Source: Denitrobaculum tricleocarpae (GTDB taxonomy: Bacteria; Pseudomonadota; Alphaproteobacteria; Kiloniellales; Kiloniellaceae). From it: a stretch of DNA of 36,026 nucleotides. A model generated the notes under the pieces. It saw nothing but the letters and a program-made list of their open reading frames with translations, had not been told where the DNA came from and did no database searches. Below, piece after piece: positions 213-13,373 of the stretch. The DNA lies in contig NZ_ML660072.1 of NCBI RefSeq assembly GCF_007004665.1, positions 1 through 36,026 on the forward strand. Reading direction: 5' to 3'. Both the position numbers and the translations under genes were made by a program. Position 1 is the first letter of the stretch. The number at the start of each line of letters is the position of its first letter.

Positions 213-2087
213 TTAGTTGAACAGAGATATCTCGTCTGAAGTGAACCAACCTTTGCAAATTAGGAATTTCTTGATGGCTGTCGGATCGCCCGAGTAAACA
301 ACAAGTGCGAGGCTTTCTTCCGCCCTTGTACAGGTGACGTAAAGAAGCCGACGTGTACGTTCGATAGCAGTCTCCTTGCCTTCAGCCTCATTCTTCAAAT
401 CGGTTTTTGACTTCGGTTTCGCGCCCAAGAGCTTCTCGTATGCGGCCGCGCCTTTGAAACGGGCACTCTCGTCATCGGCCATCACCATCACACGTGGGAA
501 TTCCAACCCCTTAACTCCTTGGTGGGTCCCGAAAGCGCTCCGGTCTTCGACATATTCTTTGTACTTTGCAATCTCTGAAAATTTGGCCCCAAGGAATGAT
601 CGCAACGCAGACTGCTGTTCATCGGCCTTATCATCATCTTCGAGGCCTGCTCCGACCAGGGGTTGCAGTACATCCGGAACCTCGAAGAGCCCGGATTGGG
701 CAACAGAATCTAGGACTTCGCCACAGGTTGGATCCGCTGCACCCTCAAAAAGCGCTATCAACTCCTTTACAGCTGTGCGCACGGGGTCGAGGCGCGAGTC
801 CATGTCAGCAACCTCATTCTCTAGGTTTTTCTTAGCTACCAACGGCGAGTAGGCTCTGAGCAGCGCCATGAGCGTGAATTGGTCGCCCTCCTGGTCAGCT
901 TCAATCAATGGCAAAATGCGTTCGGTAAAGAGGCGAAGCGGTGCGAGCGTTCCATCGCGAAAGCTTGTTTTGAACGAGCTCACCTTGTCGATTGGTTCAA
1001 ACACCCCCGAAAAGCCGAGTCGATATGCGGCCATGTGGTGCTCAAGTGTCAAAGCCTTTACATTCTCCGGCACCAGCCATTTGTCATCACAGGTTGCAGT
1101 TGCCATATCCCGTCGAGCCCTTGCTTCTGCTGAAGCTCGATCCAGTTCGGAGTTCGGAAAAAGATAGACGCGCGCAAAACCACCCTCACGATCCTTCCGA
1201 GCCCGTTGCTTGCGACCATCATAATCGGCACGGATAGCATTCGCGAGATCGACAATACGTTGCCGACTTCGATGATTCATGATTTTGGCCGGTTGCCTCC
1301 AATGAGACGGAACACAATTCGCCAATTCTGGTAACCCGTGCGGATAAATCCGTTGCATTGTATCGCCGAACAACCCGAGAGATATGCGACCACGATAGGT
1401 TTCTTCAAATCGTAGCAGGGACGTCATGAAAGGCTTCAGCGTATCTTGACTCTCATCGATGAGAATAAAAGGAAACCGGCTCAATACAATCTTTTGCAAT
1501 GTTTCCTTTGACGTCAGAAACTCAGAGGTCATCGATATCACTTCTTCATGGCTGAGCGAGTCCATCCCAAAATTGTCGCCATTCGGATTGTAGGTGAAGG
1601 TTCTGATAGTTGGCAGATCCGTTAGGCGTCTGCCTTTGGAGTCGATTTTTCGGGCACGTTCGTCCGACTTTTTCCCGGGCTTGCCTTTTGCCTGTTCCTC
1701 ATGAAGCTTTGCAATTTCTGCTGGTAATCGCTCCAACACCCAACGTCGGATATCGTTGTTGCGCCCTTCGACAAGCGACCACGCAAAGCTGTGGATAGTC
1801 GCTACATGGAAGATGGGGTCATGATTGACACGTCGCAGAATTTCATCGCGCGCAGCTTTCGTATAGGTAATTACGGCAACTTGGCGCCCGCGCTGTCGAA
1901 GTTCAACTCCAAATGTCTGCGCCAAATACTCCAATGCATCTTTCAGCGATCGCGTTTTGCCCGATCCGGCTCCCGCAAAGAGAAAGAAACTCTTGGGCTC
2001 CTGAGGATTAAGAGCTTGCCTAATTTTCTCATCCGCTGGCGCGTCGCGCGTATCGTCTTCAAATAAGTCGGTCTGTTCTTCCGTCAC
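213..2087 (-). CDS. gajB: GajB-like UvrD/Rep superfamily 1 helicase (Gabija-type defence)
   Basis: This is a 624-aa superfamily 1 ATP-dependent DNA helicase, the likely partner of the OLD nuclease encoded just upstream. Visible motifs are Walker A AGAGSGKT (residues 38-45), TIHSF (97-101), the Walker B box DESQD (211-215), GDTMQRIY (241-248), NHRSRQRIVDLA (271-282), THQGVKGLEF (motif V) and RRLLYVTCTRAEE (motif VI, from 579). It starts at a GTG whose first four bases overlap the upstream gene's TGA (GTGA), indicating translational coupling. Class 2 OLD nucleases are typically followed by such a helicase, and Gabija is the defined anti-phage example. At 624 aa it is longer than the roughly 500-aa prototype GajB. 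GC content is visibly lower than in the rest of the window, suggesting horizontal acquisition. Confidence 0.8.
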   Translation of the reverse strand: MTEEQTDLFEDDTRDAPADEKIRQALNPQEPKSFFLFAGAGSGKTRSLKDALEYLAQTFGVELRQRGRQVAVITYTKAARDEILRRVNHDPIFHVATIHSFAWSLVEGRNNDIRRWVLERLPAEIAKLHEEQAKGKPGKKSDERARKIDSKGRRLTDLPTIRTFTYNPNGDNFGMDSLSHEEVISMTSEFLTSKETLQKIVLSRFPFILIDESQDTLKPFMTSLLRFEETYRGRISLGLFGDTMQRIYPHGLPELANCVPSHWRQPAKIMNHRSRQRIVDLANAIRADYDGRKQRARKDREGGFARVYLFPNSELDRASAEARARRDMATATCDDKWLVPENVKALTLEHHMAAYRLGFSGVFEPIDKVSSFKTSFRDGTLAPLRLFTERILPLIEADQEGDQFTLMALLRAYSPLVAKKNLENEVADMDSRLDPVRTAVKELIALFEGAADPTCGEVLDSVAQSGLFEVPDVLQPLVGAGLEDDDKADEQQSALRSFLGAKFSEIAKYKEYVEDRSAFGTHQGVKGLEFPRVMVMADDESARFKGAAAYEKLLGAKPKSKTDLKNEAEGKETAIERTRRLLYVTCTRAEESLALVVYSGDPTAIKKFLICKGWFTSDEISLFN

Positions 2088-4321
2088 TGGTCTTGTGCCT
2101 TCAACATCTGACTCTCTAGCCAGGTCAGGCCATCGGCAATGTACTTAGGCGCATGCAACAGTTTGAGGTCTTTGATGCTGAGAAGATCTAGGGCAAAGGC
2201 TGCTTTTTCTGGGCGTGTTTCTAACCGATCATACAACGCCTGCGCCAGCGCACTAGCATCTCCGCTTTCCTTAACTGCTGTGGCAAATGCATTGGTCATG
2301 GCAACGCCCTTCAGATTTCCAACGGCAGCGTGATTTGCCAGTACAAGGGCGTCCTCAAAAGTACTTGGAATGATGTCTGCCGCTTGCGCGCCGACCGGGA
2401 ATTCGACCGCTTGAGAGCGCTGGTAAACAACCCCAACTTCTCCGAATCCTTCACCCGTCGCGACCGATACATCGTTTTCGTCCAGAAGGACATCAACCGC
2501 GGCTTGTTTCGGTATCCATGTCTTGAGAACCGAGTTGCTGGTCGCATAGCCCTGACCCTTTTTCGGAGGAACCGATTTGCGGTTGTCGGCTGGATTGATC
2601 GCATCAAGATCGGTGATGATGAGCGTCGGAACACACAACAGCTCGATTAGCGGCTTCAGTCGATGCGCATGACTCCCACCAATCTCAAGAAGAGACAAGT
2701 ACCGCTCCGCGAGATTAGAGAACTGATTGCTGATGAAATGCGGAAGGAGAATGCGTTCGGCGGCACCTTCAACCAAGATGACACCGTCGGCAAAGAACAA
2801 GTCACAGTGGGTAGTCTGGAGATAACGTCGAGCAAACCGGGTGGTCTCGTCGTCTTTCCCAAATAGACCTCGCAAATTAGCCACTTTAGAGGTAGAAACC
2901 AGTGGCGGTTTAGGTGGCAAGCGCTTGAAATACCTAAGATCCGCAAATTCAACCTCGTGGGCGATGTGACTGGAGTGGGTGCTGACAATGAGCTGCGTAA
3001 CGAATAGCGGCTTCTTGCCAAGAGATGGGTGATTTCTCAGCACGTCATAGGCACGCCGCATGAAAACCTGTTGAACCTGGGCGTGAAGATGCGCCTCAGG
3101 TTCTTCAATCAGAATGAGCTGAAGTGGTGCTATCGCTCCTTGAGGTTCTGCTGTTTCGTCGCCAGAAAATTTACCTACGCGCATCCAATCGTCCCGAAAG
3201 CGCATCAGCAGAAAGACCATAGAAATGAGGTTCTGAAAACCGAGCCCGTTATAATTCTCAGGTAATCGGATCGGTCCGCCCTGGCCGCCAATATCGTATT
3301 GAACGGCTGAAGGATGGTTTAAACCGTCAGTCGGACGGATACGGGTTGAAATAGAAAGCTTAGGATTCGAAATGCCAGGATATCCTAGCGTTTCCAGTTC
3401 TCCGATCGCATCAGCAAACCCTTTTTTGAGGCGCTCGTCGAAAGTCCGTTGTGCTACGTGAAAGGCGCCCAGCGCGCTTACGTCTTCTTCAGTTGGATCT
3501 TTGTCAGGATCAAGGTGCCTCTTGTAGTAGGCCGCCAACTGGTCGGACAGCTTCCGTGAAGTTCTGCCGCTGATTTGCTCGCCATCATCGTCCAATGAAG
3601 CCTTACCGTCCGATGCGTCAGAAAATCCCCGTTGCGCCCTAATTTCCTTGATATGCAAGAGTCCTGAAAATGGGTTGCCCCTGATAGCTACTGCATTGTC
3701 TGGTAGAGATTGAGGCTTCAAACTGTCATTCGCACTCAGTTGCTTAGGATCTAACAGGTAGCCTTTTAGCTCAAACTTGGTCGACAACTGCCGCTCAAGA
3801 AAGTCCTGAAATGACTTCGGCCAAAGGGAAAAACCGGCTGGCGAATTCTTGTCTTTCTTGAGTGTTTTGAGGCGAGCTTCGGCTTTGGAACGCTCCTTAA
3901 AGTATTCTGAAACTAGTTCATCGAAAGTCTTCGCCTCCAGCCGGATGCGCACTCCAAGTAACCCATCCTCCCAATCGAGGCTAGGTATCAGATGAGCGAC
4001 ATGATGTAGCTCATTGTCCTTTACGGAGAGCCAGACATCCATCTGCGGCAATTGTGCGTATAGTTTTTCGGGATCGGGTTCCTGATCATCAGGTAACTGG
4101 CGCCAAATCTCTGTTTGCTTCTCAATGGCTATCCAATTCGAAGCAGTTACGTCTTTGACAGAAAACCCTCCACGCTCTTTCAGAAAGTAACGTAACGCGA
4201 CCATCGCGGAGGTTTTCCCGCTGTTATTTGCCCCAACCAACAGCGTCTGTTTCTCCGCAAATTCCAGTCGAACACTTTGAAGCTTCCGGAAATTGCAAAC
4301 CTCGACAAAATCTATTCGCAT
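2084..4321 (-). CDS. gajA: GajA-like OLD-family ATPase/TOPRIM nuclease (Gabija-type defence)
   Basis: This is a 745-aa OLD-family endonuclease: an ABC-like ATPase followed by a TOPRIM nuclease domain. Walker A is GANNSGKT (residues 30-37), a signature-like GLGFQNLI sits at 359-366, Walker B is LILIEEPEAHLH (402-413) and the switch histidine is in VSTHSSH (447-452). The TOPRIM acidic residues are in LVEGAAE (E518, E522), TDLD (D571, D573) and FEDAL (656-660). The ATG at 4321 begins MRIDFVEVCNFRKL, the usual OLD N-terminus, and has a GAGAG purine run upstream. The frame stays open to a TTG at 4429, but that extension looks non-native. It is longer than prototype GajA (about 580 aa), with extra sequence between the ATPase halves. 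In Gabija, GajA nicks DNA when nucleotide pools fall. Assignment as class 2 OLD is firm, and Gabija function is inferred. Confidence 0.82.
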   Translation of the reverse strand: MRIDFVEVCNFRKLQSVRLEFAEKQTLLVGANNSGKTSAMVALRYFLKERGGFSVKDVTASNWIAIEKQTEIWRQLPDDQEPDPEKLYAQLPQMDVWLSVKDNELHHVAHLIPSLDWEDGLLGVRIRLEAKTFDELVSEYFKERSKAEARLKTLKKDKNSPAGFSLWPKSFQDFLERQLSTKFELKGYLLDPKQLSANDSLKPQSLPDNAVAIRGNPFSGLLHIKEIRAQRGFSDASDGKASLDDDGEQISGRTSRKLSDQLAAYYKRHLDPDKDPTEEDVSALGAFHVAQRTFDERLKKGFADAIGELETLGYPGISNPKLSISTRIRPTDGLNHPSAVQYDIGGQGGPIRLPENYNGLGFQNLISMVFLLMRFRDDWMRVGKFSGDETAEPQGAIAPLQLILIEEPEAHLHAQVQQVFMRRAYDVLRNHPSLGKKPLFVTQLIVSTHSSHIAHEVEFADLRYFKRLPPKPPLVSTSKVANLRGLFGKDDETTRFARRYLQTTHCDLFFADGVILVEGAAERILLPHFISNQFSNLAERYLSLLEIGGSHAHRLKPLIELLCVPTLIITDLDAINPADNRKSVPPKKGQGYATSNSVLKTWIPKQAAVDVLLDENDVSVATGEGFGEVGVVYQRSQAVEFPVGAQAADIIPSTFEDALVLANHAAVGNLKGVAMTNAFATAVKESGDASALAQALYDRLETRPEKAAFALDLLSIKDLKLLHAPKYIADGLTWLESQMLKAQDQ

Positions 4322-4541
4322 AGCACTCTCAAACCTGAACAGACGAATTGCGTGGTTGCAGGGTCTGCGCCAAAGTGACGATGAAAAAATCTTCGCGTCA
4401 ATTGCCCGCTTAAACAGATATTCAACCAATCGTAGGGTATGATTGAAAAATTTACAACTTTAAGATTCGCTATCTAAGAGGTCCGCATGTCGCCTGCCGC
4501 GATGCAACTTTTGACACATGCTGAATAGCCGCTATTGATCG

Positions 4542-4615
4542 GTGATCGGGCTCAGGTCTTCGATTGTCCGTACCTTCAAGTTCGCCGACGCACAATTAAA
4601 AATCTGACCCTGGTC
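4542..4615. repeat. REP-like palindromic repeat (GGGGTCAG family), copy 1
   Basis: The outer arms are gatcgggctcaggtctt and aaaatctgaccctggtc, which pair imperfectly. Inside them, ATTGTcCGT pairs with ACGcACAAT. Related blocks occur at 7976-8030 and 17183-17247. The element sits between the convergent ends of neither gene: it lies upstream of the Gabija pair and downstream of the HNH gene, so it may also end HNH transcription. Confidence 0.55.
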
Positions 4616-4782
4616 GTTACAGAGCAGATTCGCTCTCACCGCAGTTCGCTCTGTGCCGTTAGAGCTTGAAGCTGTTTTCCCGATGCCAGGTCAAAAACTC
4701 AGCCCGCGGCCGATCTGCCAGGCGTTCAGGTGCCAGGAGTTTCCCTGAGACGTTGATCATCGATTTCACCGCGTCAGGATCG
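4611..4782 (+). repeat. 172-bp direct repeat, left copy (HNH gene 3' end)
   Basis: This segment is nearly repeated at 7795-7965 in the same orientation, with scattered substitutions and about one base deleted. It covers the region just 3' of the HNH gene plus its last 40 or so codons. The pair flanks the HNH, RsbQ-like and kinase genes, so recombination between the copies would remove about 3.2 kb. Confidence 0.8.
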
Positions 4783-5558
4783 TTGGTCTGTCTGGAAACC
4801 AGGATCGCAAGATCGTCCGCTATTCCAACCAGCCCCCTGTCGAACATCCAGTGCGCCGTGCCCGATAGCGCGATCCCGTTGCTCACGATGTCAGGGCCAT
4901 CATGTTCGACGGGTCTGATATGTGCGGCCTCAACCTCTGCCCGGCCACCGCCATTGATCAGCCGTAACCCGGTGATGGCGCAGCGTTCGCCATAGGCGCG
5001 GAGGACATTTTTCCGGAAGTTTCGGTCGCGCACGGCCCGGTTGGTCAATTGCCGGACACGCTCTCCCGCCGACAGGTGTTGAAAGGGGCTCTGCTCTTCC
5101 CTGAAGCCCTCCGCAGTTCCAGCCGAATCAATCCGGGGCAGGATATCATCGTCACGTCCAAGGCCGCGTTCGAGGATGCGAGCGAAGTCTGCCGGAGAAA
5201 GCGGTCGGACCGCCGCCTGAGCCCGTCCTGAGATTTTGCCCTGGTCGTTCAAAAGACCTTGCTCGACCACATCACCGGCATCACGGAACGGCACGGGATC
5301 ACCGAAGTCGAGATAGGTCCCGGGCGCGATGATCGCCAGGTACATGTCAGCATGTCTCGGGTCGGGAATGATCTCCTGAACCTTGGCCACGGCAAAGTAG
5401 CCTTTGGTGTTTTTGACCTTCTTGGGCTCGAGATAAACGATCCAGTCCCCCTCACAGTCTTGAGCCCGTGACAGATAATTTTTCGGGAACTGATATCGTT
5501 CCGACGGCACGTCGTCGTAGATCGAATCAGTTCTGTGGATGAAGACACCAAACGCCAT
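4659..5558 (-). CDS. HNH endonuclease (putative restriction endonuclease family)
   Basis: This is a 299-aa protein with a C-terminal HNH nuclease fold: RCAITGL (C193), AAHIRPVEHDG (H213), SNGIAL (N227) and HWMFDRGL (H236) give the His-Asn-His set. The first 120 residues (MAFGVFIHRTDSIYDD, YQFP, GDWIVYLEPKK, GYFAVAKV) form a beta-rich domain seen in many alphaproteobacterial HNH proteins. It may recognise DNA, but I cannot name it. The start is set at the ATG at 5558. A start four codons upstream (5570) is possible, and neither has a good ribosome binding site. The gene lies just upstream of the Gabija pair in the same orientation but is separated from it by a palindromic repeat. A restriction or defence role is likely, though a homing or housekeeping role is not excluded. 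Confidence 0.8.
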   Translation of the reverse strand: MAFGVFIHRTDSIYDDVPSERYQFPKNYLSRAQDCEGDWIVYLEPKKVKNTKGYFAVAKVQEIIPDPRHADMYLAIIAPGTYLDFGDPVPFRDAGDVVEQGLLNDQGKISGRAQAAVRPLSPADFARILERGLGRDDDILPRIDSAGTAEGFREEQSPFQHLSAGERVRQLTNRAVRDRNFRKNVLRAYGERCAITGLRLINGGGRAEVEAAHIRPVEHDGPDIVSNGIALSGTAHWMFDRGLVGIADDLAILVSRQTNDPDAVKSMINVSGKLLAPERLADRPRAEFLTWHRENSFKL

Positions 5559-5822
5559 GCTGCAAACCATGACCGAAAATCATTGCGCTGCCAATCCGTG
5601 GGGCACTTGAAACAGCCGCGTGCCCAGCAGGCAGGGTAAGTGGAGGGGCAGATCCCGGTTTATACGCGCGCTCGTCGCGAGACCTCCCAATTACAGATTT
5701 ACTGGATTTAAGAAAATAGGTAATATGGATAGAAGCGAAATGGCCGTAATCTCGCTCCAGTTGTAGTAAAACGAGTTCGATTGCGCGGAATTCCGTAAGC
5801 AAGACAATCGGAGGCTGGTAGC

Positions 5823-6641
5823 TTGAGAAACCTATCCTTGACCAAAGAAGCGATCATCAAGCGAAACAACGTCACGATCCACGGAACCGGAAGTAAAGTG
5901 ATGATGCTGGCCCATGGTTTTGGGTGTGATCAACGCATGTGGCGGTTTGTCCTTCCCGCATTGTCGGAGCGTTATACGCTTGTGCTGTTCGATTACGTCG
6001 GGTCGGGCAACTCCGATCTGTCCAGCTTTTCCGTCGATAAGTACGCCGACCTGAACGGATATGCGCAGGACGCTGTGGACATCATTGACGCCTTCGAACT
6101 TAAAGATGTGACGTTTGTCGGCCACTCGGTCAGTAGCATGATCGGACTGATTGCATCCATCGCCTCACCGGGCGCGATCGCAGAGCTGATAATGGTGTGC
6201 CCGTCGCCGTGTTTCCTGAACGATTTGCCGGAGTATGAAGGAGGGTTCAACCGGAGCGATCTGGAAGAGCTCTTGAGTCTTATGGACAAAAACTACATTG
6301 GCTGGGCCAATTACCTGGCGCCGCTCGTCATGGGGGCGAACTCGTCGGAGGCGCTTATCGGAGAGCTTTCAGGCAGCTTCTGCTCTACCGATCCTGTCGT
6401 GGCCAAGGCCTTTGCCAAAGCCACGTTTTTTTCGGACCATCGCAGCCTCTTACCTCAGTGCAGCGCGCGAACGCTCATACTGCAATCGGCGTCAGATTCT
6501 CTGGCTTCGGTGCACATAGGAGAATACATCCATCAGCATGTACCCGACAGCGAACTGAAAATTATTGAAGCCGAAGGGCACTGCCTGCATATGACCGATC
6601 CGGAGGTCGCGGCAAGGTCTGTCATCGATTTTGCAGGTTAA
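5823..6641 (+). CDS. rsbQ: RsbQ-like alpha/beta hydrolase
   Basis: This 272-aa alpha/beta hydrolase closely resembles Bacillus RsbQ, the hydrolase needed for energy-stress signalling through RsbP. It shares KRNNVTIHGTG, GFGCDQRMW, LFDYVGSGNSDL, NYIGWA, FCSTDPV and FFSDHR. The catalytic triad is intact: Ser102 (GHSVSS), Asp225 (QSASD) and His253 (EGHCLHM). The plant receptors KAI2 and D14 belong to the same family. The start is TTG at 5823, 8 bases after a CGGAGG ribosome binding site; a second in-frame TTG at 5838 would match the RsbQ start more exactly. The stop overlaps the possible upstream start of the kinase gene, so the two form one unit. RsbQ proteins are thought to act on or deliver a small hydrophobic ligand sensed by the partner's PAS domain. 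Confidence 0.88.
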   Translation: MRNLSLTKEAIIKRNNVTIHGTGSKVMMLAHGFGCDQRMWRFVLPALSERYTLVLFDYVGSGNSDLSSFSVDKYADLNGYAQDAVDIIDAFELKDVTFVGHSVSSMIGLIASIASPGAIAELIMVCPSPCFLNDLPEYEGGFNRSDLEELLSLMDKNYIGWANYLAPLVMGANSSEALIGELSGSFCSTDPVVAKAFAKATFFSDHRSLLPQCSARTLILQSASDSLASVHIGEYIHQHVPDSELKIIEAEGHCLHMTDPEVAARSVIDFAG

Positions 6642-6648
6642 CAACCTG

Positions 6649-7791
6649 ATGAGCCCGTGCGGGACCGAGACCGACCTCCTGCCTTGCGGCATCGCCAAGA
6701 TCGGCAAAGACAGAAATCTGCTCAACTGCAACCGATACGCTCTGGATCTATTGGCTTGTGGAAGTGTGGACGACATTGCCGGCCGCAAAATCAGCGAGCT
6801 GGTTTCGGTTGGAACACAGATTTTTTTGGACAGCTATGTCTACCCGATGCTTTTGAACGAGGGCAGGGCCGAGGAGGTGCAGCTGATCCTCAAATCATTG
6901 GCTGGCGAGACCAAGCCGATCGTTGCCAATATCAGGATGAACGCGGACCAGACGACTGACTGGGCGTTCATGACCTGTGTCAACCGCGATCAGCTCTACA
7001 CCGAACTGCTGGGGGCGAGGGATACGCTTCAGGCTCAAACGCGGGAGCTCGGTCGGCTTAACGCCCGCAGTCAGGAGCGTCAGTCAAACCTGCAGGCCTT
7101 TTGTCAAAGTCTGTCCCACGATTTCAGCGGCCCAATTCGGCGAATCCGTCAGCTTATTGAGTTGGCGTTGATGGATCTTCGCAAAGGCGGGATCGAAGCG
7201 CCGGAAGAGTTCGAAATGCTCGGTTACGCCCTGAAGAACTCTGAAGTACTGACAGATCTGACAACGGGTCTGGTCGGGTACCTTGTCGCCGACCTGGCGG
7301 TGTCGCACGACGAGACCGTGGACCTGGAGGAGATCATATCGACGGTACTTTCCATGCGTGAGCAGCAGGACCCCACGAAACCAAAGGTACAGCGGACGTC
7401 ATTACCGACCATCACAGGCAGCAAAGCGCAGCTTCTGGTGTTGTTTAAAAATCTCCTGGAAAACGCCATTAAATATAACGAGAACGATCCGGAGATTACC
7501 ATCAGCCACAGCGAGAATGTTGCCAAAAGCCGGATCGTGATTGCGATCAAGGACAACGGCATAGGAATGTCGGCAGAGTCTCTGGAAAAGGTGTTTGACC
7601 CCTTTACCCGATTAAATCTAGAGGGCGACTACAAAGGCAGCGGTCTGGGACTGAGTATCGTCAAAAAAATGGTGATGAACCATGATGGCGACATATGGGC
7701 CGAGAGCACGCCGGGCACTGGAAGCACGTTCTACGTCTCACTCCCCCTCAATCCGCGGGGCCATCCCACGAGACCTGACTCTGACCGCTGA
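6649..7791 (+). CDS. PAS-domain sensor histidine kinase (RsbQ partner)
   Basis: This is a soluble 380-aa histidine kinase with no membrane segment. Residues 8-115 form a PAS domain whose core, FLDSYVYPMLLNEGRAEEVQL, resembles the PAS domain of RsbP-type proteins. A short coiled coil follows (118-150), then the H box CQSLSHDFSGPIRR (His157), N box LFKNLLENAIKYN, G1 DNGIGM (302-307), F box VFDPFTRL and G2 GSGLGLSIV (330-338). The ATG at 6649 is chosen, 7 bases after the hydrolase stop; an in-frame TTG at 6631 would overlap the hydrolase by 11 bases. No response regulator is present nearby, so the output is unknown. In Bacillus the RsbQ partner is a PAS-PP2C phosphatase, so kinase output here is a rewired version. 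The 3' end abuts a duplicated repeat. Confidence 0.85.
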   Translation: MSPCGTETDLLPCGIAKIGKDRNLLNCNRYALDLLACGSVDDIAGRKISELVSVGTQIFLDSYVYPMLLNEGRAEEVQLILKSLAGETKPIVANIRMNADQTTDWAFMTCVNRDQLYTELLGARDTLQAQTRELGRLNARSQERQSNLQAFCQSLSHDFSGPIRRIRQLIELALMDLRKGGIEAPEEFEMLGYALKNSEVLTDLTTGLVGYLVADLAVSHDETVDLEEIISTVLSMREQQDPTKPKVQRTSLPTITGSKAQLLVLFKNLLENAIKYNENDPEITISHSENVAKSRIVIAIKDNGIGMSAESLEKVFDPFTRLNLEGDYKGSGLGLSIVKKMVMNHDGDIWAESTPGTGSTFYVSLPLNPRGHPTRPDSDR

Positions 7792-7794
7792 CCA

Positions 7795-7965
7795 TGGTCG
7801 TTACAGAGCAGGTCCGCTGTCATCGCAGTTGGCTTTGGGCCGTTAGAGTTGGAAGCTGTTTTCCGATGTCAGGTCAGAAATTCTGCCCGCGGCGGGTATG
7901 CCAGGCGTTCGGGTGCCAGGCTTTTCCCTGAGACGTTGATCATCGATTTCACGGCGTCAGGATCG
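7795..7965 (+). repeat. 172-bp direct repeat, right copy (truncated HNH tail)
   Basis: This matches 4611-4782 at most positions. The similarity stops abruptly after GCGTCAGGATCG, where the intact HNH gene would continue, and a second palindromic-repeat block follows within about ten bases. Confidence 0.8.
7843..7964 (-). pseudogene. HNH endonuclease C-terminal remnant
   Basis: Read on the minus strand it gives DPDAVKSMINVSGKSLAP and then ERLAYPPRAEFLT, which matches the last 40 residues of the intact HNH protein. The following Trp codon has become TGA, and a one-base deletion then shifts the frame. The first 260 residues are missing. It is a decayed partial copy of the gene at 4659-5558 and can be used to date the duplication. 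Confidence 0.85.
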
Positions 7966-9699: not shown

Positions 9700-9767
9700 T
9701 TCTTTAGGAATCAAGATGGCCGGGAGCCCGCCAGAGCCGAGGCCCGGCCGCAGGAAAGAGTGTGAAA

Positions 9768-10496
9768 ATGGATACAGCCGTGGCCGGAAAGCGGCCCCCA
9801 GAACCTGTAACACCAGAATCTGAGTCAGCGGAGTCTGGATCCGCAGAGTCTGGATCCGCAGAGTCTGGCCGTCCACAGCCGGTCGAGCGGCGACGGCCCA
9901 GCCGGACGGACGCGGAGGCGGCGGTCCGCACCCTGATCGAATGGGCCGGCGACGACCCGGACCGGGAAGGGCTGGTCGGCACGCCGGGGCGGGTCGTGCG
10001 GGCCTATGAAGAGTTCTTCGCGGGCTACAGCGAAGACCCGGCCGCCCTGCTGGCCACCACCTTCGAGGAAGGGGTGACCTATGACGAGATGGTGGTGTTG
10101 CGGGACATTCGCCTGGAGTCTCACTGCGAGCACCATATCGTCCCCATTCTCGGCAAGGTGCACATCGGCTACCTGCCCGCCGGGCGGGTCGTCGGCATTT
10201 CCAAGCTCGCGCGCCTGGTCGAGGTCTTCGCCAAGCGCCTGCAGATCCAAGAGGCGCTGACCGCCCAGATCGCCGACAGCCTGCAGGAGGTGCTCAAGCC
10301 GCTGGGCGTCGGCGTCGTGATCGAGGCGGCGCACCAGTGCATGACCACGCGCGGCGTGCGCAAGCCGGGGGTCAGCATGGTGACCAGCCGCATGCTCGGG
10401 TCCTTCCGCGACGACCCGGCCACCCGCCGGGAATTCCTCTCCATGATCGGCGGGTCCATGATCAGCGGGCAGGGGAGCGCGTTGCATGAAGCCTGA
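9768..10496 (+). CDS. folE: GTP cyclohydrolase I (FolE, type IA)
   Basis: This 242-aa enzyme converts GTP to 7,8-dihydroneopterin triphosphate, the first step of folate synthesis. The catalytic core spans about 45-225: [15 protein letters not shown], the zinc ligands in SHCEHH (Cys120 and His123) and HQCMTTRG (Cys191), and [15 protein letters not shown]. The zinc site looks intact, so this is the zinc-dependent type. The ATG at 9768 follows AGGAAAG by 9 bases; an upstream GTG at 9762 is too close to the binding site. The first 40 residues are an atypical Ser/Glu/Gly tail encoded by a 15-base tandem repeat (ESGSA units at 9831-9869). It is the first gene of the Zur-box operon and overlaps hisI by 11 bases. 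Confidence 0.93.
9831..9869 (+). repeat. 15-bp tandem repeat inside folE
   Basis: The unit gagtctggatccgca is present 2.6 times with no mismatch and encodes ESGSA repeats in the FolE N-terminal tail. It stays in frame, so copy-number change would only alter tail length. Confidence 0.85.
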
Positions 10497-11082
10497 CCAG
10501 AACGGCCCTAAACCTTCGGGGGCGTCGGCGGTTTCGGGAGGCTCGGCGGTTCCGGGAGGCTCGGGGGCCTTCGCGGCGCGCCTCTCCGTCGAGCAGGTCG
10601 AGGAAGGCTTCGCCCTGGCCCCGAAGTTCGACGCGGAGGGACTGATCCCCTGCATCACGACCGACGCCGCTACGGGCGAGGTCCTGATGCTCGGCTACAT
10701 GAACGGCGCGGCCCTGGAGAAGACCATCGCGACCGGCGAGGCACACTACTGGAGCCGAAGCCGCCAGTGCCTCTGGCGCAAGGGCGCGACCAGCGGCCTC
10801 GCGCAGAAGGTCGAGGAGATGCGCGTCGACGACGATCAGGACGCCATCTGGCTGCGCGTCCGGGTCGCCGGTTCCGGGGCAAGCTGCCACGTCGGATACC
10901 GCTCCTGCTTTTACCGCTCGGTCGAGCTCGGCGGCCAATCCGGCAGTCTGGCGGGTGACTCGCCGGGCATCTCTTCGGGCATCTCCCCGGGCGGACCTGC
11001 GCGGCTCCGTCTGGAAGAGTCCCGGAAGACCTTCGATCCGAAGGCCGTCTATGGCGATGCGCCCAACCCCACCCAGCTTTGA
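10486..11082 (+). CDS. hisI: Phosphoribosyl-AMP cyclohydrolase (HisI)
   Basis: This 198-aa protein opens the purine ring of phosphoribosyl-AMP in histidine synthesis. Core motifs are [35 protein letters not shown] and [11 protein letters not shown] (Cys134, Cys141). In many HisI proteins the acidic motif reads D-C-D-x-D and its cysteine is a zinc ligand; here that position is Asp116. The last residues, [16 protein letters not shown], are a normal alphaproteobacterial HisI tail. A Gly/Ser-rich N-terminal extension (1-30) and an SGISPG insert (about 155-165) arise from short DNA repeats. The gene overlaps folE by 11 bases and is in the Zur-box operon. Whether it is the only HisI or a zinc-sparing paralogue cannot be told here. 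Confidence 0.92.
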
Positions 11083-11096
11083 GAGGAGCGCGCCCT

Positions 11097-11456
11097 ATGT
11101 CCGATCAATCAGGAGCGCCCGGCCAACCAGGAGCACCCGACCGCACGGGGGTCGAGAGCCTGCTCGAGCCCCTCGATGAGGTCTCCGACGACCACTTGCC
11201 GCCGCGCTTTTCGGATGCCCTGACGGAGCTGCGCGCGGCGATCGCACGCTGCCATACGGCGGGCATTCCCGAAGATACCACGCTCGCCGCCTTGCTGGTG
11301 GAGACCATGCCGCGTCTGGTCGAGGCCTATGGCGCGGACGGCGCGGCGGCCATGCTGGGCGAGCTTGCCCAGGAGATATCGGATGCGGACGGGGCGCCGC
11401 AGGCCCGTAAAGCCGAAACTCATGATGCCAAGAGGAAAGCCGCTGTCCATGACTGA
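11097..11456 (+). CDS. Small hypothetical protein in zinc operon
   Basis: This 119-aa protein is unrecognised. It has a disordered Gly/Pro/Ala N-terminus ([12 protein letters not shown]) and then a predicted helical domain (about 30-105: [38 protein letters not shown]). There is no signal peptide or metal-binding motif beyond one Cys-His pair. The ATG at 11097 follows a GAGAGGAG ribosome binding site. It overlaps the zigA start by 8 bases, so it is translationally coupled to the metallochaperone. Position suggests a role in zinc limitation, but that is context only. Confidence 0.75.
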
Positions 11457-12678
11457 AACTCTCGCTTCCGCCCAGCTTCCCGTGACGGTCCTCTCCGGCT
11501 TCCTCGGTGCCGGCAAGACCACCCTGATGAACCACATCCTCAACAACCGCGAAGGCAAGCGTGTCGCGGTCATCGTCAACGACATGAGCGAGGTGAACAT
11601 CGACGCCGATCTCATCCGTGACGGTGGCGCCGATCTGAGCCGTACCGAAGAGACGCTGGTTGAAATGACCAACGGCTGCATCTGCTGCACCCTGCGCGAC
11701 GACCTGCTCCAGGAGGTGCGCCGGCTGGCGCAAGACGGCCGGTTCGACTACCTCCTGATCGAATCGACCGGCATTTCCGAGCCATTGCCCGTGGCCGCCA
11801 CCTTCAACTTCCGCGATGAAGAGGGCGAAAGCCTGGAAGATGTCTCGCGCCTCGATACCATGGTGACCGTGGTGGATGCCGCCAACCTTCTGCGCGACTA
11901 TGCGTCGACGGATTTCCTCAAGGACCGGGGCGAGGCGCTGGGCGCGGAAGACGATCGCACGCTGGTCAACCTGCTGGTCGATCAGATCGAATTTGCCGAC
12001 GTCATCATCCTGAACAAGCTCGATGCGGCCTCGCCGGACCAGCTCGATGCCGCGCGCAAGATTATCCGCTCGCTCAATCCAGACGCGGAGCTGATCGAGA
12101 CGAATATGTCGCGCGTGCCGCTGGACAAGGTTCTGAACACCGGCCGTTTCGATCACGAGAAGGCGGAGGAGCATCCGCTCTGGTTCAAGGAGCTCTACGG
12201 CTTCGCGGACCACGCGCCCGAGACGGAGGAATACGGCGTGCGCAGCTTTGTGTACCGGACGCGGCGTCCGTTCCATCCGGAAAAGTTCTACTCTTTCCTC
12301 AACAGCGGCTGGCCGGGCGTCATCCGCGCCAAGGGACACTTCTGGCTCGCCACCCGTCCGGAATGGGTCGGCGAACTGAGCCAGGCCGGCGCGCTCGTAC
12401 GTCATGAAGCCATGGGCTTCTGGTGGGCAAATGTGCCCAAGGAACGCTGGCCCGATATTCCCGAGTGGCGCGAGCACATTGCAAACGCCTGGGACCCCGT
12501 CTACGGAGACCGGCGCCAGGAGATCGTCTTCATCGGGACCGATATGGACGAGGCCGCACTCCGCCGCCGCCTCGATGACTGCCTTGTCGGCGATGCTGAC
12601 GCCATGACGCTGGAGACCGCTGCCTGGAAAGATCTGAAAGATCCCTTCCCGGTCTGGAAGCGGGGAGTGCCGTCATGA
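11449..12678 (+). CDS. zigA: COG0523 zinc metallochaperone GTPase (ZigA-like)
   Basis: This 409-aa G3E-family GTPase of the CobW/COG0523 group is predicted to load zinc into client enzymes when zinc is scarce. Visible motifs are the P-loop [10 protein letters not shown] (17-26), the metal site GCICC (76-80), ESTGISEP (105-112) and NKLD, with a CobW C-terminal domain from about 250 to 375. The N-terminus ([20 protein letters not shown] and [20 protein letters not shown]) is characteristic of the ZigA subgroup. The ATG at 11449 has AGAGGAAA about 10 bases upstream, so the long upstream extension of the frame is rejected. It sits between two coupled genes and ends with an ATGA overlap into the DUF1826 gene. 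Confidence 0.92.
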
Positions 12679-13373
12679 GCGCGCCGGTGCCATCCCTCGA
12701 GAGTGAAGCAAGCGGGCAAGGCGCCTCGGCGGCCAAAACCGAGACAGGCATAGAGACCTGCGGCGGGCTGGCGGGCCTCGCGGCCATCAACAGGCCTGAT
12801 AGGGACCTGGTGATCTGGGCGCGCGCGCTTCCGCTGTGCCTGACGGCCTGGCTCGAAGGCCTGGAGGCGTCGTGTCTGCCCGACCTGCGTGTTCTTGTCC
12901 GCCCCGGTGATTTCCGGGCCGCCGTCGAGCCGCAACTGGACGGCTGCGGCATGCCGCCAGGCGACATGCGGGATCTGCTGATCGGGGATGCCGACGCGCT
13001 CGTCGCGGCCTTTTCCCAGGTGACCGGGAGCGACCTCGTCGATGTCCGGCTGGAGCGCGTCAGCCACGATGCCTGCTGGAAGTTTCACCGCGACAGCGTG
13101 GAGGCCCGCCTGGTGACGACCTACCGTGGGCCCGGGACCGAGTGGGTCCGGCCGGGCCAGGCGGAGCAGGCCTTGCAGGAACAGAAGCAATTCAAAGGAC
13201 CGCTGGAGCAGTTGCGCCTGCACGAGGTGGCAGTTTTCAAGGGCAGCCGCGCGGGGACGGGCAGGGGCATCGTTCACCGCTCGCCGCCGGTCGCAGGCAC
13301 CGGTCAGACACGCTTGCTGCTCTGCCTCAACAGGCCGTCCCACGTCTCGCCGGAGCCCTGGCCGCAGGCGTGA
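12675..13373 (+). CDS. DUF1826 family protein (zinc-limitation operon)
   Basis: This 232-aa protein carries the DUF1826 signature [13 protein letters not shown] followed by [13 protein letters not shown] (about 128-158), where Cys, His and Asp could bind metal. Its ATG overlaps the zigA stop as ATGA. DUF1826 genes repeatedly sit beside COG0523 chaperones in Zur regulons (for example in pseudomonads), so a part in zinc homeostasis is supported by neighbourhood. The biochemical activity is unknown. The first 35 residues are low-complexity and probably disordered. It is the last gene of the operon. Confidence 0.85.

Follow-up and report, generated by a model that had tools for sequence, protein, structure and literature searches.

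What is an RsbQ-type hydrolase doing beside a histidine kinase, and from where did such a pair obtain its two halves? The question is raised by two genes at 5823..7791 in Denitrobaculum tricleocarpae, on the contig NZ_ML660072.1, which was analysed entire (36,026 bp, here called the window) and lies within a 6.4-Mb genome. We read the pair as a bipartite RsbQ-PAS module with a histidine kinase output, belonging to a small lineage whose sensor half is of the type otherwise joined to diguanylate cyclases (DGC), most simply through replacement of a cyclase by a kinase within the linker, and we put the probability of this reading at roughly 0.7. The parts of the module are the following, with protein positions for the second gene numbered along the kinase.

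5665..5822, forward strand: leader with a probable promoter and ribosome-binding region, conserved against the related locus L052; GGAGG at 5810-5814
5823..6641, forward strand: RsbQ-type alpha/beta hydrolase, 272 residues, TTG start; codons of the catalytic triad at 6126-6128 (S102), 6495-6497 (D225) and 6579-6581 (H253)
6631..7791, forward strand: RsbP-type PAS-linker-histidine kinase, 386 residues from TTG 6631 or 380 from ATG 6649
6673..7011, forward strand: RsbP-type PAS domain (residues 15-127), profile match 8.6e-36; F-alpha helix with Q63, F65, Y69 and P72
6967..7062, forward strand: predicted helical linker of DGC type (residues 113-144), the proposed swap point, where DGC homology stops
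7081..7764, forward strand: histidine kinase core (residues 151-378) with H163 (codon 7117-7119), N278, DNGIGM and GSGLGL

The pair of hydrolase and PAS-kinase genes is real, far beyond chance. The locus L052, from an uncultured Kiloniellaceae bacterium and identical in DNA to the same-genus genome G002, encodes an RsbQ 93% identical to that of the window, and the two share a gap-free block of 2138 bp with its left edge at 5665. Measured against L052, the ratio of nonsynonymous to synonymous substitution rates (dN/dS) is 0.10 in rsbQ and 0.17 in the kinase gene, indicating purifying selection in both; on these values and the gap-free block the idea of a decaying gene pair was rejected. Within the leader 128 of 158 bases are identical to L052; it contains no match to the sigma-70 consensus, and its ribosome-binding-like GGAGG stands upstream of the TTG start of rsbQ. 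For the kinase the likelier start is ATG 6649, 7 nt past the hydrolase stop, over TTG 6631, which overlaps that stop; the gap between the two genes in the relative L003 is likewise 7 nt.

The original prediction described the hydrolase as a whole-length match to RsbQ with an intact triad, and this held up on closer inspection. It aligns with Bacillus subtilis RsbQ (PDB ID: 1wom) without gaps over residues 10-269 (E 4e-86), with S102 (in GHS), D225 and H253 all in place, and by these measures is a nearly full-length RsbQ orthologue. The match to Olei00960 (PDB ID: 3qvm) stands above that to RsbQ (E 1.3e-109), and those to plant KAI2/D14-type chains are weaker (best 6.8e-58, range about 1e-58 to 1e-38). 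RsbQ is a bacterial relative of the plant strigolactone and karrikin receptors, and by sequence KAI2/D14 fall in the same hydrolase subfamily as the window RsbQ; the plant receptors signal via F-box and repressor proteins, not PAS domains.

In the second protein Pfam recognised ATPase-domain families alone (HATPase_c, E 1.3e-27; HATPase_c_5, 7.8e-5), matching neither PAS nor HisKA at E <= 0.01, and the PAS domain was found instead with the RsbP-type profile. Six of nine residues of the RsbP-PAS class, mapped by spacing, are identical: C19, Q63, F65, Y69, E82 and P96, the equivalents of RsbP C10, Q53, F55, Y59, E72 and P86. V58 and L66, mapped in the same way, are hydrophobic counterparts of RsbP L48 and C56, and A22 stands for RsbP L13, a position where 9 of 35 kinase-type rows also have alanine. 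The PAS ends in WAFMTCVNRDQLYTELL, with no DIT motif, and is followed by a linker of about 38 residues (113-150) that is homologous to DGC linkers up to residue 144. The RsbQ-PAS class (PMC3183031) is marked by a coiled-coil linker that is 21 residues long or longer and by the lack of a DIT motif. The earlier assignment of this PAS to the RsbP class is thus supported by the six residues, and also by a search of 397 genomes, described below, in which each of the 26 best-scoring PAS matches has an RsbQ as its neighbour. Against solved structures the PAS profile found no RsbP-PAS chain, the best match (8e-5) being a PAS kinase. The kinase boxes, from H163 and N278 through DNGIGM to GSGLGL, are complete.

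The architecture itself has precedent. Nadezhdin, Brody and Price reported in 2011 a set of 45 adjacent RsbQ/RsbP-PAS pairs with a PPM phosphatase, a histidine kinase or a diguanylate cyclase as output (PMC3183031), and a 2025 eLife paper repeats those three outputs and puts forward the view that sensors and outputs can be exchanged by virtue of coiled-coil linkers (PMC12143880). The idea that the substitution of a kinase for the phosphatase is a new wiring therefore had to be given up, since it was published in 2011 and the kinase form is found in 10 of 11 proteobacterial plasmid records that we inspected. The window module belongs to this published class, sharing with it the adjacent rsbQ, N-terminal RsbP-type PAS with its F-alpha helix, helical linker, kinase output and absence of a DIT motif. 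With B. subtilis RsbQ-RsbP it shares the nearly full-length RsbQ, the triad and the six PAS residues, though the output of RsbP is a PPM phosphatase and that of the window protein a histidine kinase. That the 2011 paper already covers the kinase-output headline limits the interest of the locus, and what is new is the ancestry of the sensor half: the window has a sensor half and linker that are of the DGC-type lineage and not of the lineage of the usual alpha- and betaproteobacterial (alpha/beta) kinase members. A search of the open-access literature (titles and abstract openings; most subscription papers and all preprints lie outside it) found neither a kinase in the DGC-type lineage nor an RsbQ-PAS fusion in a single chain. 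The abstract of the 2011 paper assigns kinase outputs to Gram-negatives only (PMC3183031). In Litchfieldia salsa, a member of the Bacillota, we note that the RsbQ-PAS module (L081) has a histidine kinase output.

To place the module we used 126 loci, namely 80 on genome contigs (from 156 relatives), 12 on plasmid records (from 74), 33 genomic stretches and the window; L002, with the same DNA as L052, was excluded before counting, and the short loci L133-L165 were replaced by the wider stretches L166-L198. After thinning by identity, trees were built from 84 RsbQ rows and 71 PAS rows, and from 67 joined rows without the long-branch L167, L168, L183 and L196. In all three trees the window forms a fully supported clade with L052, L003 (Granulosicoccaceae) and L004 (Bacteriovoracaceae). 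This clade falls in a mainly gammaproteobacterial DGC-type lineage, which also contains the Paracoccus plasmid module L121, and away from the alpha/beta kinase modules. Support for its grouping with DGC modules is 97/99 for RsbQ, 96/94 for PAS and 100/100 for the joined rows, where it joins five DGC modules at 100/96 inside a clade of 38 rows (33 DGC, one other and these four). Outside the window clade the closest RsbQ proteins (<= 66% identity) are those of mainly gammaproteobacterial RsbQ plus PAS-GGDEF modules such as L011, L035, L005 and L006, which also share the PAS and the linker as far as residue 144, and in which a diguanylate cyclase follows the linker where the window has a kinase.

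The reading of the window as an ordinary RsbQ-PAS-histidine kinase member, related as a whole by descent to the alpha/beta kinase modules and with nothing distinctive about it, is put in serious difficulty by these trees. In approximately unbiased (AU) tests, a tree that forces the window clade and the alpha/beta kinase clade together was rejected by RsbQ (p-AU 0.006), PAS (0.0005) and the joined rows (7e-6), as was a single group of all kinase modules (9e-5, 9e-6 and 2e-7, respectively). Profiles agree with the trees. Over the first 150 residues, all four members of the window clade score 100-112 bits with the DGC profile, compared to 46-60 with the alpha/beta kinase profile. Among modules used in neither profile, every one of 14 further kinase-type modules fits the alpha/beta kinase profile better, as do the two of HWE type, and out of 44 DGC modules 38 score higher with the DGC profile, with the limit that many of these 44 closely resemble rows of the profiles. 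The DGC profile aligns to residues 13-144 of the window protein and then stops where the kinase begins, and the linker alone scores 30.8 bits with it, compared to 8.2 with the alpha/beta kinase profile. An end of DGC homology at residue 144 is the trace that an exchange of outputs inside the linker would leave. Judged from trees and profiles, then, the sensor half (RsbQ, PAS and linker) is of the DGC-type lineage, without a common origin with the sensor half of the alpha/beta kinase modules.

The kinase half gives a less sharp picture. A tree of 66 kinase domains, 36 from modules and 30 others (from locus flanks, this genome and three further genomes), places the window clade in a set of 14 rows (97/93) with eight other kinases and those of L077 and L079, and the alpha/beta module kinases separately (100/99). 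The closest solved relatives of the kinase include bacteriophytochrome kinases. Stronger AU rejections for the kinase (3e-6 for alpha/beta, 6e-62 for all module kinases) were discarded, as the constraints also forced other kinases, two of them in the alpha/beta case, out of those groups. As a separate observation, alpha/beta RsbQ-PAS kinases such as L166, L182, L186, L188, L189, L191, L192 and L194 are without the usual Asp of the DxGxG box and read N-x-G-x-x-I-P or similar, and may on that account be atypical ATP binders; the window clade keeps DNGIGM or DNGIGI.

The window clade may be a natural chimaera, in which an RsbQ-PAS-linker unit with an evolutionary past beside a diguanylate cyclase acquired a histidine kinase through a new junction within the coiled-coil; we consider the odds somewhat better than even. 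Several points weigh against the reading given at the outset. The nesting of the window clade inside the DGC modules, needed for the direction from DGC to kinase, rests on branch support, and the AU test fails to reject a sister relationship between the clade and the proteobacterial DGC modules (joined 0.25, PAS 0.09, RsbQ 0.23). The clade has only four members, of which L003 and L004 come from metagenome-assembled genomes. Six of the 44 DGC modules prefer the alpha/beta profile, clearly so for the cyanobacterial L067 and L069 and the Paenibacillus L132, and narrowly for L183, L185 and L196. The HisKA domain is missing from the Pfam matches, and no cognate receiver was found in the organism's own genome. 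Finally, grouping of the kinase domain with the whole 19-row alpha/beta set (AU p 0.22), or with the kinases of L077 and L079, which are from other phyla (AU p 0.27), was compatible with the data, so that the kinase may derive from a different RsbQ module, or may be ancient.

The best of the alternatives makes use of the same points. The ancestor of the DGC-type lineage might already have had a kinase output, which the window clade kept while in related modules it gave way to cyclases, on one occasion or several. The sister position that the AU test leaves standing and the possible grouping of the kinase domain with module kinases of other lineages are what such a history would have in its favour. 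It is nevertheless unlikely in our view, since the supported branches (100/96, 95/92 and 98/96) nest the window clade within DGC modules, and the linker is DGC-type to residue 144 when the N-terminal parts of other kinase modules fit the alpha/beta kinase profile. Ordinary membership, set out above, fares far worse: though architecture, gene order and PAS class are the same as in the published class, and a common origin of the kinase domain alone would be compatible with the AU test (p 0.22), the rejection of a common sensor half makes it very improbable.

Under the favoured reading, replacement of a cyclase by a kinase at the linker, the module would probably work as follows, where we infer each step and with them the direction of regulation. 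RsbQ would bind, and possibly hydrolyse, a small molecule, and its state would reach the PAS by direct contact, presumably through F65 and Y69 of the F-alpha helix, the equivalents of RsbP F55 and Y59. A change in the PAS dimer would then reach the dimerisation helices by way of the coiled-coil linker and so set autophosphorylation of H163, from which the phosphate would go to a response regulator encoded elsewhere. In RsbP, F55A and Y59A lower RsbQ binding, and F55A, Y59A, L48A and E72A abolish signalling (PMC3183031). Two published models, delivery of a product and contact driven by occupancy, both involve direct RsbQ-PAS contact (PMC3183031); the F55A and Y59A data say that contact matters and make no decision between the two. 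The original prediction of a ligand-generating hydrolase thus corresponds to one of two published models, and the interaction and genetic results in print favour the RsbQ-PAS contact common to both. The 2011 paper gave the cue of the RsbQ-PAS module as unknown (PMC3183031), and the search of the open-access literature gave no later paper naming it.

A kinase version with a sensor half near to cyclase versions would mean that one input could be read by two assays. If the reading is right, gammaproteobacteria could turn into cyclic di-GMP (c-di-GMP) the same chemical input that feeds a phosphorelay in this organism, and if the chimaera is real it provides a natural pair for testing linker-level exchange without further adaptation, and for finding the ligand. 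It would also be evolutionary evidence for the 2025 proposal that coiled-coil linkers are the places where sensor domains change their outputs.

The pairing of RsbQ with this PAS is general. An RsbP-type PAS lies beside RsbQ, or is fused to it, in 118 of the 126 loci. It is in the next downstream gene in 113, with GGDEF as output in 75, a kinase in 27, a kinase with receiver in 8 and something else in 3; in the other five it is upstream (L015, L016 and L060), in an overlapping frame beyond the distance limit at 54 bits (L198), or fused (L177). The eight loci without a PAS partner include L038 and L080, whose contigs end about 120 bp later, L169-L172, with divergent hydrolases (34-37% identity), and L179 and L181, with no PAS partner within the stretch. 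Because the PAS profile came from the same genes as the pairing count, a reverse search was run, in which a 30-row PAS profile gave 54 matches in 397 genomes. All 26 matches of at least 77.9 bits lie within 115 bp of an RsbQ; 11 of these are profile rows or the window, and 15 are not, several of them being near relatives of rows. Only one of the 28 weaker matches, that of G708, adjoins an RsbQ, with the limit that an RsbQ weaker than 1e-45 would escape. Viewed from the hydrolase, 27 of 29 RsbQ places in the 397 genomes have the PAS. The survey thus found the rsbQ-PAS pair to be widespread, with the two genes occurring together in other genomes and the PAS inside the RsbP class, so that neither outcome named as refuting the original prediction came about.

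Carriage of the module is sporadic, and it has probably moved horizontally. RsbQ is present at E <= 1e-45 in 8 of 387 alphaproteobacterial genomes and in 26 of 397 genomes of the phylum. With the threshold at E <= 1e-40, 98 relatives yielded two carriers, both of the same genus, in which 2 of 4 genomes carry it. RsbQ relatives are found on 74 of 72,556 plasmid records (E <= 1e-20). Carriage by phages was considered and rejected, with no RsbQ in 50,697 phage records (E <= 1e-10) and no match confirmed in a scan of viral contigs.

The survey also turned up a number of unusual arrangements. In L177 (3080-4828, reverse strand, genome G638) RsbQ, RsbP-type PAS and GGDEF occupy a single frame of 582 residues. 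This natural fusion fits direct RsbQ-PAS contact, though it is a single case in which sequencing error is possible; the stretch that matches the fusion is broken by an in-frame stop in G811, in G813 and in another copy within G638. The order is reversed in L015, L016 and L060, where rsbQ follows a long PAS gene that has GGDEF/EAL-like motifs, the published pattern being rsbQ immediately upstream. A further output class is found in L168 and L195, where the downstream gene has the RsbP-type PAS, then a second PAS and then a histidine kinase of HWE type, as Pfam shows in the case of L168.

The original prediction of a soluble histidine kinase without a response regulator nearby agrees with the intact kinase boxes and with the distribution of receiver domains, for which there are 83 matches genome-wide and none on the 36-kb contig. 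Other modules differ in this regard. Of the 36 kinase-type modules (35 and L198), eight have a fused receiver, and five of the remaining 28 (L003, L077, L131, L191 and L198) have a single-domain receiver gene that overlaps or lies within 130 bp; in L167 a receiver protein of 446 residues is encoded 95 bp upstream of the module. Comparison of the receivers of L003, L077, L131 and L191 showed that they are not one family. The receivers in the organism's own genome most like that of L003 (C4:253221 and C3:344204) are themselves beside other kinases, and neither is named as the partner.

Upstream of the module lie the following genes.

213-2087, reverse strand: GajB, a full-length Gabija match
2084-4429, reverse strand: GajA, a full-length Gabija match
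4659-5570, on the strand opposite to the module: HNH protein

That the module is a defence-linked sensor regulating these anti-phage genes is the least credible reading, for despite the full Gabija pair and the HNH gene, all within 6 kb, and PADLOC candidate families (PDC-S06 and PDC-S01) in the two candidate defence proteins near L004, the G002 genome has the module without GajA, five scanned flanking proteins of L003 and L052 have no PADLOC match at E <= 1e-5, the phage and viral-contig searches described above gave no confirmed RsbQ, and the defence genes are on the opposite strand. GajA is absent from all three other genus genomes searched, G002 included, and gene order around the module differs between the window and G002/L052. 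PADLOC gave no match for the hydrolase and weak ATPase-domain matches alone for the kinase. We read the Gabija neighbourhood as an accessory region and not as a functional link, and the placement next to defence genes, which had earlier been emphasised, looks incidental.

A direct repeat (4604-4782 and 7788-7965, 87-89% identical) that includes the 3' end of the HNH gene flanks that gene and the module. Its second copy begins at the last codons of the kinase, and all but its first 15 bp lie outside the block shared with L052. The repeat was rejected as a mobile-element signature, the part searched having two copies only in the genome, both in the window. Farther downstream, 9762-13373 holds a cluster of genes for GTP cyclohydrolase I, phosphoribosyl-AMP cyclohydrolase, CobW and DUF1826, which we take to resemble a back-up cluster for zinc limitation.

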